A stretch of DNA of 64,000 nt, taken from contig NZ_JYFE01000032.1 of the NCBI RefSeq assembly GCF_000877395.1, forward strand, positions 1 to 64,000. Direction: 5' to 3'. The DNA is from Jannaschia aquimarina. GTDB taxonomy: Bacteria > Pseudomonadota > Alphaproteobacteria > Rhodobacterales > Rhodobacteraceae. A model generated the notes under the pieces. That model was not told the origin of the DNA. It saw only the letters and a program-made list of their open reading frames with translations, and did not search any database. The translations under genes were made by a program, and so were the position numbers. Positions 472 through 31,055 of this stretch are shown piece after piece; the stretch's first letter is position 1; each line of letters begins with the position of its first letter.

Positions 472-1542
472 TTGGCCAATCTCGACGCGCAGATCCGCGA
501 AAGCCAGGCCCAGGTGGCCGCCACGCAGCAAGAGATCATTCAGGTCACCAGCCGCATCAGCGAAGCGCGAGAGAAGCTGGAACAGGGCATCACCATCGAC
601 GTGGAGAACGCGACGCTGGAAGAGGTGCAGGCCCACACGGATGCGATGAACGCCAACATCGCCGAGCTGATCATGGGTCTCGACGATGTGACCGCCGGTT
701 TCTCCAAGGATTTCGACGAGATGCGTTCGAAGACGGGGATGGAGAAGCTCATCGGCATCTTCGCCAGCGGCAAGGCCGAGTCCATGCGCCAGGAGCGGCT
801 GCGCAGTGCCTCCATCGACGACAAGCTGCAGGACCTGATCTCGAAGTCGGACACGATCACACAGCTTCTGCAAGGCCAGTTGAAGGTGCTCGAGGATCAG
901 CGGACGCAGGTGGAACGGAACCTCTCCCTGACGCTGGAGGACCGGGAAGCCGCCGTTGCCGACCTGGAACAGATCCGCGCGCAGGTCCGGGAGATGGATC
1001 CCGAATTGATCGCGCTCGAGAACAAGATCGCTTCCGAGACGGATGCCGCCGCCCGGACCAAGCTGGAGTCCGATCTGGCCGAGATGAATACGCGCCACAA
1101 CGAGCTGGTGCAGCAGGAGCAGGTCAAGCTGGCCGAGAGCCAGACGCTCGAGCGCTATATCGAAAAGGGCAAGACCTGGGTCGACAGCCTTCAGAATCAG
1201 GCGGCCACGCAGATGGTGCTGATCAACAAGCTGGAGACCGACACCAAGCAACGGGTCGTCCTGTATGACGCGTTGTCCAAGTCGCTCAAGACGGCGCAGC
1301 AGCAGGACGTGGCACACCGGATCAACGAGATCGGCGTCAAGACAGACCAGGAGGCGCAGCAGGCCATGGCCGCCATCGGCGCGGCCACCAACACCCGCAT
1401 GGCCGAGATGCTGGAAGCGCATGAGGACCACATGGTTTTCGCCCGCGACGTCCTCGAGGCGAAGGCCAAGGCCGACGAACGCTTCGCGCGCCGCTTCGCC
1501 CAGATCGTCGAAAAGCACGACAGCAATCTCTACGGCGGGTGA
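472..1542 (+). CDS. Coiled-coil protein of unknown function, first gene of AAA+ module
   Basis: A 356-residue soluble protein with a TTG start placed 9 bases after a strong AGGAGG (457-462). It has no signal peptide or membrane segment. It is dominated by Glu/Gln/Leu/Ala-rich heptads (about residues 1-60, 95-180 and 190-260), so extended coiled coils are expected. The general character recalls TelA/KlaA-type proteins, but I see no motif that proves membership. Its stop overlaps the GTG start of the next gene, so the two are probably translationally coupled. Being first in a nine-gene run with an AAA+ ATPase suggests a substrate, scaffold or adaptor role; that is inference from position only. 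Confidence 0.7.
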   Translation: MANLDAQIRESQAQVAATQQEIIQVTSRISEAREKLEQGITIDVENATLEEVQAHTDAMNANIAELIMGLDDVTAGFSKDFDEMRSKTGMEKLIGIFASGKAESMRQERLRSASIDDKLQDLISKSDTITQLLQGQLKVLEDQRTQVERNLSLTLEDREAAVADLEQIRAQVREMDPELIALENKIASETDAAARTKLESDLAEMNTRHNELVQQEQVKLAESQTLERYIEKGKTWVDSLQNQAATQMVLINKLETDTKQRVVLYDALSKSLKTAQQQDVAHRINEIGVKTDQEAQQAMAAIGAATNTRMAEMLEAHEDHMVFARDVLEAKAKADERFARRFAQIVEKHDSNLYGG

Positions 1543-21385: not shown

Positions 21386-22072
21386 TCATTCCGCCGCCTC
21401 CGCCCGGCGGGTCTCTTCGGACAGGCGTCCGTCCACGAGGCGGATCGTCCGATCGCACCGCTCGGCAAGTTCTCGCGAATGGGTGACGAGGATCAGGGTG
21501 GAGCCGTGCCGGTCCCGCAATCCGAAGAGCAGATCCATGATCTGTTCCCCCGTCGCGGCATCCAGGTTGCCCGTCGGCTCGTCCGCCAAGAGGATGTCCG
21601 GACGCGGCGCGGCGGCGCGGGCGAGGGCCACGCGCTGCTGCTCGCCGCCCGACATCTGGGCGGGGTAGTGCCCCGTCCGATGACCGAGGCCGACCGCCTC
21701 CAGTTCCTCCGCGGCCCGGTCGAAGGCGTCCGCAACGCCAGCGAGTTCGAGGGGGGTGGCCACATTCTCCAACGCGGTCATCGTCGGGATCAGGTGGAAG
21801 GATTGGAACACCACCCCCATATGCTCCCGGCGGAAGCGGGCAAGGGCGTCCTCGTCCATCGCGGTGAGGTCATGGCCCAGCGCCATCACTTCGCCGCCAG
21901 TGGCGCGTTCCAGTCCGCCCATGACCATGAGGAGAGAAGACTTGCCGCTGCCCGAAGGTCCGACCAGCCCCACCGTCTCGCGCTCGGGAACCGAGAGCGT
22001 TATCCCATGCAGTATCTCGACCACCCCGGCATTGCCGTCGAGGGACAGGGAAACGTCTTTGAGATCGAGCAT
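21386..22072 (-). CDS. ABC transporter ATP-binding protein, YbbA/LolD type
   Basis: A 228-residue ABC ATPase: Walker A GPSGSGKSSLL, signature MSGGEQQRVALARA, Walker B ILLADEPTGNLD and the switch histidine in THSREL. The GNLD extension places it with LolD/MacB/YbbA ATPases that energise FtsX-like permeases. The start at 22072 gives the standard LDLKDVSLSL N-terminus; the longer frame overlaps the divergent esterase gene. Confidence 0.92.
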   Translation of the reverse strand: MLDLKDVSLSLDGNAGVVEILHGITLSVPERETVGLVGPSGSGKSSLLMVMGGLERATGGEVMALGHDLTAMDEDALARFRREHMGVVFQSFHLIPTMTALENVATPLELAGVADAFDRAAEELEAVGLGHRTGHYPAQMSGGEQQRVALARAAAPRPDILLADEPTGNLDAATGEQIMDLLFGLRDRHGSTLILVTHSRELAERCDRTIRLVDGRLSEETRRAEAAE

Positions 22073-22769
22073 CTGGGCGGAACTCCGGTCGTGGTGTGCG
22101 TCAATCGGATATGGGGCGGTCTCTGCGGCCCGCAAGCCGCTCCTCGCGGCTCTTGTCTGGGTTCCCGTCGCGGCCGGCGCACAGGAGGTGCGCGTTCTTG
22201 CGCTGGGCGACAGCCTGACCGCTGGCTACGGCCTGCCGGAAGGCGAGGGCTTCGTGCCGGTCCTGCAGGATTGGCTCGAAGACAAAGGGTATTCCGCCGA
22301 GGTCGTGAATGCAGGGGTATCCGGCGATACGACGGCCGGCGGCTTGGCCCGGCTGGACTGGGCGCTCTCTTCGGAACCGGATGCGGCCATTGTGGCGCTC
22401 GGCGGCAATGACCTGCTGCGCGGCATCGATCCGACGGCAAGTCGGGCCAATCTGGACGGGATCCTGTCGCGCCTGCGCGAAGAAGGCATCGAGGTGCTGC
22501 TGGTCGGTCTGGAGGCGCCCGGCAATTACGGCGCCGCCTTTCAGCAGGCCTTCGATGAGATGTATCCCGCCCTCGCAGCCGAACACGACGCGCTGCACGA
22601 GGTCAGCTTTCTGGGGCCCTTGACGGCCGAACTCCCGATGCAGGAAGCCCGCGCGCGATACCTTCAGGCCGACGGGATCCATCCCAATGCCGAAGGGGTC
22701 GAGGTCATCGTGGATGCCTTGGGGCCGCGCGTGGCGGAACTGGTCGAAAGGGTCGAGCCGGGCTCTTGA
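22059..22769 (+). CDS. tesA: Secreted GDSL arylesterase/thioesterase I
   Basis: A SGNH hydrolase: block I LALGDSLTAGYGLP, block III GGNDLLRG and block V DGIHPNAEG with the Asp-His pair. A signal peptide core LLAALVWVPVAAGAQ precedes the domain, so the enzyme is periplasmic. It hydrolyses acyl or aryl esters. The start codon is unresolved: no ATG or GTG lies in frame shortly before the signal peptide, and the TTG at 22059 (overlapping the divergent ATPase gene by 14 bp) is the nearest usable one. The stop codon overlaps the RpoH-type promoter of the next gene. Confidence 0.8.
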   Translation: MRSSIWAELRSWCASIGYGAVSAARKPLLAALVWVPVAAGAQEVRVLALGDSLTAGYGLPEGEGFVPVLQDWLEDKGYSAEVVNAGVSGDTTAGGLARLDWALSSEPDAAIVALGGNDLLRGIDPTASRANLDGILSRLREEGIEVLLVGLEAPGNYGAAFQQAFDEMYPALAAEHDALHEVSFLGPLTAELPMQEARARYLQADGIHPNAEGVEVIVDALGPRVAELVERVEPGS

Positions 22770-22793
22770 ACGCCGGAATAAGTCCACCCAAAT
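22765..22793 (+). promoter_or_regulatory. Sigma-32 (RpoH) type promoter of hsp20
   Basis: CTTGAA (22765-22770) and, after 14 bases, CACCCAAAT (22785-22793) match the RpoH consensus CTTGAAA...CCCCATNT closely. The -35 overlaps the tesA stop codon. Transcription would begin near 22800, immediately before the three-hairpin leader of the hsp20 gene. Confidence 0.75.
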
Positions 22794-22800
22794 CTCTGTC

Positions 22801-22887
22801 GTCGGACGCCGGTTTCGGGTCCGCAAGACACCGCCCCCGTCCTCGCCGGAGGGGGAAAGCAATGTATCGCTTCAAGAGGATGCAAAG
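22801..22887 (+). promoter_or_regulatory. ROSE-like RNA thermometer, hsp20 5' leader
   Basis: The 87-base leader folds by eye into three successive hairpins. Hairpin 1 (22803-22823) pairs CGGAC-CCG with CGG-GTCCG; hairpin 2 (22834-22855) pairs CCCCC-TCC with GGA-GGGGG; hairpin 3 (22863-22884) pairs TGTATC-CT with AGGATGCA. Each stem has one unpaired G. In hairpin 3 that G lies in TCGCT opposite the Shine-Dalgarno AGGA (22877-22880), exactly the U(U/C)GCU anti-SD element of ROSE thermometers. At low temperature the ribosome site, seven bases before the ATG, would be masked; heat would melt it. Confidence 0.8.
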
Positions 22888-23358
22888 ATGCGCACCTATG
22901 ACTTCACGCCGCTCTACCGTGCCACCGTTGGTTTCGACCGCATGGCCGACCTTCTGGACCGTGTCATGACGAACGACGTCGCGACGAACGGTTATCCCCC
23001 CTACAACATCGAGAAGACCGGCGATGACGCCTACCGAATCACCGTCGCCGTGGCCGGCTTTGCGCCGTCGGACCTGAACGTCGAAGTTCGGGAGAACGCG
23101 CTGATCGTTGCCGCGCGCAAGGAGAAGGGCGACGCCAAGCGCACTTATCTCCATCGCGGGATCGCGACCCGGGCTTTCGAGAAGACCTTCCAACTGGCCG
23201 ATCACGTTCACGTGACCGGAGCCCGCCACGAGGATGGAATGCTTCACATCGAACTGGAGCGTCAGGTTCCCGAAGCCCTGAAGCCCCGTCAGATCCAGAT
23301 CGCCTCGCACGGATCTGTCGACGCAAAGGCGATTGAAGGCCAGACGGTCGAAGCCTGA
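22888..23358 (+). CDS. Small heat shock protein, Hsp20/IbpA family
   Basis: A 156-residue chaperone of the IbpA type. The alpha-crystallin domain spans about residues 33-130, with YRITVAVAGF, the strand LIVAARKE and AFEKTFQLADHVHVTGARHEDGML. A C-terminal I-x-I motif (IQI) for oligomerisation is present. It binds unfolding proteins during heat stress in the cytoplasm. The start ATG is fixed by AGGA at 22877-22880. Regulation appears two-layered: RpoH promoter plus RNA thermometer. A strong terminator follows. Confidence 0.93.
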   Translation: MRTYDFTPLYRATVGFDRMADLLDRVMTNDVATNGYPPYNIEKTGDDAYRITVAVAGFAPSDLNVEVRENALIVAARKEKGDAKRTYLHRGIATRAFEKTFQLADHVHVTGARHEDGMLHIELERQVPEALKPRQIQIASHGSVDAKAIEGQTVEA

Positions 23359-23380
23359 TCGGGCCGTTGAACGGATCGAA

Positions 23381-23405
23381 GGCGCGCCATCAGGCGCGCC
23401 TTTTT
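23381..23405 (+). terminator. Rho-independent terminator of hsp20
   Basis: GGCGCGCC at 23381-23388 and again at 23393-23400 (a palindromic octamer, so the copies pair) with loop ATCA and a run of five T. It lies 22 bp after the hsp20 stop codon. Confidence 0.9.
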
Positions 23406-23481
23406 CGTGCCGACGTCGCCGAGCGTTGCGATGGCAAGGAATCATGCGGTCGATTTGGCGGAGGTGTCATCCCGACCGCGA

Positions 23482-30995: not shown

Positions 30996-31005
30996 TGCGG
31001 TTCAG

Positions 31006-31055
31006 CGTCCCAACGGCTTCCTGACGGGACGGTTAGCAACTCTATCGGAGCGCCC
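31006..31055 (+). promoter_or_regulatory. SAM/SAH riboswitch upstream of metK
   Basis: CGTCCC (31006-31011) pairs with GGGACG (31026-31031), enclosing the loop AACGGCTTCCTGAC, which matches the conserved core of the SAM/SAH riboswitch class. The loop bases GCTTCC can pair with the downstream Shine-Dalgarno GGAG (31047-31050), forming the H-type pseudoknot that hides the ribosome binding site when S-adenosylmethionine is bound. This class occurs in Rhodobacterales, always before metK, as here. It gives translational feedback control. Confidence 0.88.

Follow-up and report, generated by a model that had tools for sequence, protein, structure and literature searches.

The leader of the hsp20 mRNA of Jannaschia aquimarina is, very probably, a ROSE-like RNA thermometer of the type known from Escherichia coli ibpA, carried by a transcript that would be driven by RpoH. 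The leader is located in a stretch of 64,000 nucleotides of genomic DNA (the window), to which all coordinates refer unless a locus is named. A first-pass annotation had proposed the combination of an RpoH promoter with a ROSE-like element on hsp20, and comparison with relatives supports this proposal. The evidence beyond chance for the hsp20 leader is comparative, and the three-hairpin structure is shown by covariation.

The hsp20 Locus and Its Promoter

The hsp20 gene (22888–23358, forward strand) starts with the ATG at 22888 and encodes a protein of 156 amino acids that belongs to the IbpA class (Pfam HSP20, 70.4 bits). It is preceded by an open reading frame at 21756–22769, which by its appearance we take to be an SGNH esterase. 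The stop codon of this frame is overlapped by the −35 element of a putative promoter of the sigma-32 (RpoH) type, CTTGAA (22765–22770, forward strand). The −10 element CCCAAAT (22787–22793, forward strand) is assigned from the sequence and from pattern counts among relatives. It lies within CACCCAAAT (22785–22793), which is separated from CTTGAA by 14 bases. The 5′ end of the hsp20 transcript would be expected at ∼22800. No sigma-70-like site was found in a scan of 22650–23450.

For comparison, we used the window together with the best 80 of at least 588 confirmed hsp20 candidates, a set of 81 leaders. The pattern TTGA-N15–19-CCHANNT is present in 69 of the 81 hsp20 leaders (window plus best 80 of 588 relatives) and in 1 of 79 control stretches located 0.7 kb downstream of hsp20 starts, whereas the strict form CTTGAA-N15–17-CCCAVAT is present in 42 leaders of the same set and in none of the 79 controls. 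The close sigma-32 match with a 14-bp spacer claimed by the first-pass annotation stands. Agreement with the consensus quoted in PMC3669281 suggests that RpoH is used at hsp20. A sigma-32 promoter upstream of the leader is a usual, but not required, trait of ROSE elements and is found here as a sequence pattern.

Elsewhere in the window, a SAM/SAH riboswitch (RF01727) at 31002–31052 on the forward strand scores 46.9 bits and exceeds its cut-off of 40.

Three Hairpins with Unpaired Guanines

The leader can be drawn as three hairpins on the forward strand. In hairpin 1 (22803–22823), positions 22803–22807 pair with 22819–22823 and 22809–22811 with 22816–22818, leaving G22808 unpaired. Hairpin 2 (22834–22855) is organized in the same way, with 22834–22838 paired to 22851–22855, 22840–22842 paired to 22848–22850, and G22839 unpaired. 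The C5 and G5 arms of this hairpin can slip, and its lowest-energy fold features a G·G mismatch instead of the unpaired G. In hairpin 3 (22864–22883), UCGCU (22867–22871) faces the Shine-Dalgarno sequence AGGA (22877–22880), with G22869 unpaired. The AGGA, 7 bases upstream of the ATG at 22888, is invariant among the leaders. Hairpins 1 and 2 make no contact with the Shine-Dalgarno sequence, yet they are conserved.

A UYGCU–AGGAT pair of motifs close to the start codon is present in 81 of 81 leaders (window plus best 80 of 588 relatives). Within the same set, a hairpin of the form G-CC loop GG, flanked by four or more outer pairs, is found in 75 leaders, and a second one of this type in 79. All three hairpins are found in 73 of the 81, and hairpin 1 or 2 is missing in 8, in a mechanical count made without a shuffled control.

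After removal of eight near-duplicates by eye, 73 of the 81 leaders were aligned (alignment A1). UYGCU and AGGAT are both present in all 73 rows, and the unpaired G of hairpins 1, 2, and 3 is kept in 73, 72, and 73 rows, respectively. We then used permutation tests on all 73 rows, which were anchored on the conserved motifs while the partners were permuted. Outer pairs 2–6 of hairpin 1 are formed in a fraction of 0.90–0.99 of the rows, compared with 0.47–0.87 for permuted partners; pair 1 is formed in 0.96 in both cases and hence uninformative. Hairpin 2 has a mean of 4.99 contiguous outer pairs versus 2.36 (S.D. 0.16) after permutation, with at least four such pairs in 68 of 73 rows and 0 or 1 in five rows. 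The pair just inside UYGCU–AGGA is C-G in 61 rows, T-A in 9, and T-G in 3, with no mismatch.

A smaller alignment (A2), from which the covariance model R1 was also built, consists of 52 of 68 rows retained at a 72% identity cut. The 16 rows outside it include all five with a weak hairpin 2 (L003, L044, L045, L062, and L080). In the 52 chosen rows, 95.4% of the cells in the named structure are paired versus 85.0% after shuffling, sliding the partner by one column lowers this value to 58%, and 131 double-sided changes are seen versus 41 (S.D. 8) after shuffling. These counts lean toward the structure because the five weak rows are left out, so the 73-row permutation test is the fairer one. RNAalifold, unaided, predicts the same three helices.

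Two structural claims of the first-pass annotation are thereby upheld. The three consecutive hairpins with one unpaired G each are seen in the sequence and in the 73-row alignment, and UCGCU opposite the Shine-Dalgarno AGGA, with the G opposed, is confirmed by comparison across all 81 leaders (window plus best 80 of 588).

Distribution of the Leader

The model R1 (52 leaders, window included) scores the window element with 53.8 bits, and the next best place in the same genome with 15.1 bits. Within the family, 135 of 149 genomes contain a match (a single one in 134), although part of these species may also be represented in the training set; no match was obtained in the other 14. Each of the 30 best-scoring among the 136 family places is followed by hsp20. 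In a sample of the class, 68 of 289 genomes were matched, 4 of which belong to the family. R1 also finds the ibpA leader of E. coli K-12 (41 bits, E 2.8e-9), at a site that overlaps the Rfam ROSE_2 place (100.4 bits). We also aligned 78 R1 matches, most of which lie outside the family, by fitting them to the model itself. Where a row has a letter at the position, the three unpaired guanines are kept in 77 of 77, 63 of 64, and 76 of 77 cases, respectively.

We checked the gene behind 77 places, comprising the class-search places outside the family, six family-search stretches, E. coli ibpA, and the second hsp20 of the genome. An Hsp20 relative lies downstream of 70 of these (phmmer E below 1e-5). 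The remaining seven are two clpB (L155 and L181), two dnaK (L184 and L188), L179, L183, and L187. By eye, L179 precedes an hsp20 that was overlooked by the start finder; no clear gene follows the R1 match at L183 and L187. The L187 element (824–886, forward strand) scores 22 bits and contains UCGCU followed by AGGAGGAT. The matches that precede clpB and dnaK belong to other alphaproteobacteria and score 22–38 bits; L184 stems from a genome of 0.8 Mb and L188 from the family of the window itself.

Rfam does not annotate this leader. The window reaches 18.0 of the 45 bits demanded by RF00435 and 17.7 of the 43 bits demanded by RF02523 (ROSE_3), which presumably represents the short ROSE-like element of Pseudomonas ibpA; both values are below the gathering scores. 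With RF01832 (ROSE_2), no match to the window appears even at E up to 10. Among 20 of the best 80 of 588 relatives, none reaches a cut-off, and four yield a ROSE match below it when E values up to 1 are admitted. The scan with Rfam ROSE models that the first-pass annotation had suggested as a check therefore failed to return any of the 21 sequences (window plus 20 relatives) at cut-off. We set Rfam aside as an arbiter, as it places the window and 20 of 20 relatives below cut-off. A search of the own genome with RF00435 gave nothing; the model was also silent in all 14 control genomes, so this result says little.

Possible Regulation by the Hsp20 Protein

The near-invariant unpaired G of hairpins 1 and 2, away from the ribosome site, poses the question of whether it serves folding, melting, or protein binding. 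According to PMC10474464, IbpA of E. coli represses its own translation via the 5′-UTR, for which R93 is essential and an aromatic residue at the position of Y34 is required, and the authors suggest the same for alphaproteobacteria. It is therefore possible, and we entertain it tentatively, that the main regulator of the hsp20 leader is a protein: Hsp20 would bind its own leader and repress it until aggregates titrate the protein away, and temperature would act mostly via this titration. Such a role would fit the conservation of the first two hairpins, neither of which contacts the Shine-Dalgarno sequence. It would also fit the equivalents of R93 and Y34: arginine and tyrosine occupy these positions in the window Hsp20, in 80 of 80 relatives (best 80 of 588), and in the genome's second Hsp20, although these residues could also be retained for chaperone function. 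Of two further basic residues that are needed in E. coli, R97 is replaced by K (tolerated there) and K98 by T. Moreover, self-binding is compatible with thermal opening, and both can act on one leader.

Folding Energy and Predicted Opening of the Shine-Dalgarno Sequence

The folding energy of the leader is unremarkable (z −1.13), and 27 of 200 shuffled sequences fold as well. In the minimum-energy fold of the window sequence, AGG pairs with codons 2–4 (GCACCU) from 15 to 60 °C, 37 °C included. The folding that the first-pass annotation had proposed as a check hence gave a divided answer: the Shine-Dalgarno sequence is mostly paired, but in the lowest-energy fold its partner is codons 2–4 and not UCGCU. 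Taken at face value, this minimum-energy choice for a single sequence would mean that in this species the ribosome-binding site is hidden mainly by codons 2–4. We consider this improbable. Hairpin 3 is close in energy to the codon pairing, with a probability of 0.34–0.53 between 15 and 45 °C in the window sequence. The codon pairing is not conserved, as CCT occurs within codons 2–4 in 14 of 80 relatives (best 80 of 588), while UYGCU–AGGA is invariant and the neighboring pair covaries.

In the energy model, the mean unpaired probability of the window Shine-Dalgarno sequence rises from 0.12 at 25 °C to 0.21 at 42 °C. The median for the 81 hsp20 leaders (window plus best 80 of 588) is 0.13 and 0.23, compared with 0.27 and 0.28 for 44 control ORFs of the window. 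At 25 °C, the hsp20 leaders are more hidden than the controls (rank test, p 0.03), with one-quarter of the controls matching the hsp20 median in this respect. Our positive control, the ibpA leader of E. coli, hardly opens in such calculations (0.03 at 25 °C and 0.06 at 42 °C). Because this control behaves likewise, single-sequence folding, with its z of −1.13 and little melting from 25 to 42 °C, was dropped as proof.

That the hairpins terminate or attenuate transcription of the upstream gene is highly improbable and was rejected: they closely follow the upstream ORF and are G+C-rich, but a terminator scan of 22650–23450 found none, and the leader is kept in 80 loci that extend at most 1.5 kb upstream of hsp20 and give no tblastn match (E 1e-5) to the final 184 amino acids of that ORF.

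We thus favor a thermometer, in which the hairpins that hide the ribosome-binding site probably open on warming. Judging from the promoter, RpoH would transcribe hsp20 on heat shock. Hairpins 1 and 2 would be folded at normal temperature, with ribosomes kept from starting by the UCGCU–AGGA pairing of hairpin 3. This third hairpin, which is weak and contains an unpaired G, would open as the temperature rises and allow Hsp20 to be made, as expected from ROSE elements tested elsewhere.

Relation to Known ROSE-like Thermometers

Waldminghaus reportedly surveyed alpha- and gamma-proteobacteria in 2005. ROSE-like thermometers with RpoH promoters are well established on small heat-shock genes (PMC3669281 and PMC4166951), and joint control by RpoH and ROSE is established for Pseudomonas putida ibpA (PMC3669281). 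Within the roseobacter clade, ibpA and hspD of Nautella R11 were described in 2011 to carry typical ROSE-like motifs (PMC3230580), the only report that we found on RNA thermometers in Rhodobacterales. Given these reports, the ROSE-like kind is already known and the taxonomic group is not new. The first-pass expectation that two-layer heat control would be notable in a Rhodobacteraceae-like genome is thus not sustained, the Nautella R11 motifs having been known since 2011. What is new are the comparative proof, the gap in Rfam annotation, and the three near-invariant unpaired G.

The hallmark of ROSE-like thermometers is a U(U/C)GCU that blocks the Shine-Dalgarno sequence in the 3′-proximal hairpin (PMC3669281). 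In the hsp20 leaders, this motif pairs imperfectly with the Shine-Dalgarno sequence in the 3′-proximal hairpin in 73 of 73 rows, although the minimum-energy fold of the window differs. ROSE-like elements are further described as leaders of small heat-shock genes with 2–4 stem-loops in the 5′-UTR (PMC3669281 and PMC4166951); the window leader belongs to such a gene and has three stem-loops, which covary. A relation in sequence and structure to a known member is provided by the R1 match to E. coli ibpA (41 bits).

The E. coli ibpA leader (RF01832, ROSE_2) shares with the window UCGCU opposite the Shine-Dalgarno sequence, a sigma-32-like sequence upstream, and a small heat-shock protein gene. Drawn by eye, the E. 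coli leader can likewise adopt three hairpins, every one with its unpaired G; loop lengths and sequence are unlike those of the window. When the E. coli sequence is folded singly at 25 °C, hairpin 1 is drawn, but other pairs form downstream. Rhizobial ROSE (RF00435) aligns over its whole model at 18.0 bits and has in common hairpin 1 with an unpaired G and a UYGCU hairpin at the Shine-Dalgarno sequence. In contrast to RF00435, hairpin 3 of the window is shorter and stops short of the start codon, and hairpin 2 contains an unpaired G that is not found in the RF00435 consensus. The short ROSE-like element of Pseudomonas ibpA also combines UYGCU at the Shine-Dalgarno sequence, an RpoH promoter, and a small heat-shock protein gene, but it has two hairpins only (PMC3669281), and the second hsp20 of the genome resembles it more. 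The leader of this second hsp20 (L082, 1904–1956, reverse strand) has the sequence CTTG..CCCACAT and is a short ROSE-like element with hairpins 1 and 3 only, which scores 15.5 bits with R1 and 23.7 bits with ROSE_3 (cut-off 43). The likeness to Nautella R11 ibpA and hspD (roseobacter clade, small heat-shock genes, and ROSE-like motif) is drawn from the description in PMC3230580. ROSE-G elements, as presented in PMC12857270, have an unpaired G in the anti-Shine-Dalgarno strand as well; they differ in featuring CUGCU, a second unpaired G in the Shine-Dalgarno strand, and a location on ABC transporter genes. The hsp20 leaders have UYGCU and a consensus AGGA that is fully paired, so that the ROSE-G signature (CUGCU with an unpaired G on both strands) is not found in it.

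Leaders of clpB, dnaK, and groES

The ROSE family has been described as always associated with small heat-shock genes (PMC4166951); later, ROSE-like elements were reported on ABC transporter genes (PMC12857270). Judged by titles and abstract openings, none of the papers that we found reports such an element on alphaproteobacterial clpB or dnaK.

The clpB leaders of the family (L194–L223; that of the own genome is L209, C50:93062–93147) assume a different conserved structure, in which an outer stem of AG-GCCCG with CGGGC-G-CUU surrounds a hairpin of the hairpin 1 type. Alignment A4 comprises 29 of 30 clpB loci (L197, whose leader looked different, was omitted); at each of the two positions, 28 of the 29 rows have the unpaired G. 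We counted 48 double-sided changes versus 14 (S.D. 3) after shuffling and 90% of cells paired versus 80%, values that lean toward the structure, as it was drawn by RNAalifold from the same rows. A model of this leader (R2) matches 81 of 100 family genomes, namely all 29 row sources and 52 of 71 others, and 6 of 190 genomes in the class sample, three from the family and three weak. Among 61 genomes with clpB located, 48 of 50 R2 matches end 13 bases upstream of the clpB domain match, a distance that is fixed because the model ends at the start codon. No Rfam family was found at this structure in 8 clpB loci at E up to 1, and R1 matches one of the 30 loci (L211). Since the Shine-Dalgarno sequence is not hidden in the consensus fold, the clpB leader does not qualify as a plain ROSE thermometer.

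For dnaK, weak R1 matches of 9.7–16.6 bits were obtained in 14 of 30 loci, 11 of which end 7–9 bases before the ATG. Some dnaK leaders look ROSE-like (L226, L229, L230, L237, L239, L240, L244, L247, L251, L253, and others of L224–L253), with ATCGCY opposite AGGGAT or GAGGAT and, in several, a preceding hairpin with an unpaired G. In a motif count, the mean number of outer pairs is 3.2 for hairpin 1 versus 0.8 in plain shuffles, and 3.8 versus 2.3 for hairpin 3; 0 or 1 outer pairs of hairpin 1 are formed in 11 of 29 loci, including that of the own genome (L252). The MAFFT alignment A5 (29 of 30 loci, L242 being missed by the start pattern) is poor, and RNAalifold gave no ROSE-like consensus for it. 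In two relatives, the Ruegeria Cis2 sRNA (RF02645) is located upstream of dnaK on the opposite strand (L226:3617–3764 and L240:1–152).

At groES, R1 gave a match at E up to 10 in 1 of 25 loci (L258, 14.7 bits, just upstream of the gene). The site contains the inverted repeat GCACTCG..GAGTGC, which we take to be CIRCE, and the match was therefore set aside and groES rejected as a ROSE gene.

Implications for Heat-shock Control in the Family

The comparison places hsp20 of the family among the genes with ROSE-like leaders in 135 of 149 genomes, where Rfam reports nothing, and R1 ties the alphaproteobacterial leaders to E. coli ibpA. With the covarying clpB leader, the disaggregation machinery may be under RNA control in more than its small heat-shock genes. 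From the sequences, one may speculate further, as an unlikely scheme, that the hsp20, clpB, and, in some genera, dnaK mRNAs of Rhodobacteraceae share an unpaired-G hairpin tag (Y-G-CC loop GG-R), which would be bound by the small heat-shock protein via R93 and Y34 and keep the mRNAs silent until aggregates draw this protein away. If true, one aggregate sensor would set the translation of the whole disaggregation team, on top of RpoH and thermal opening.
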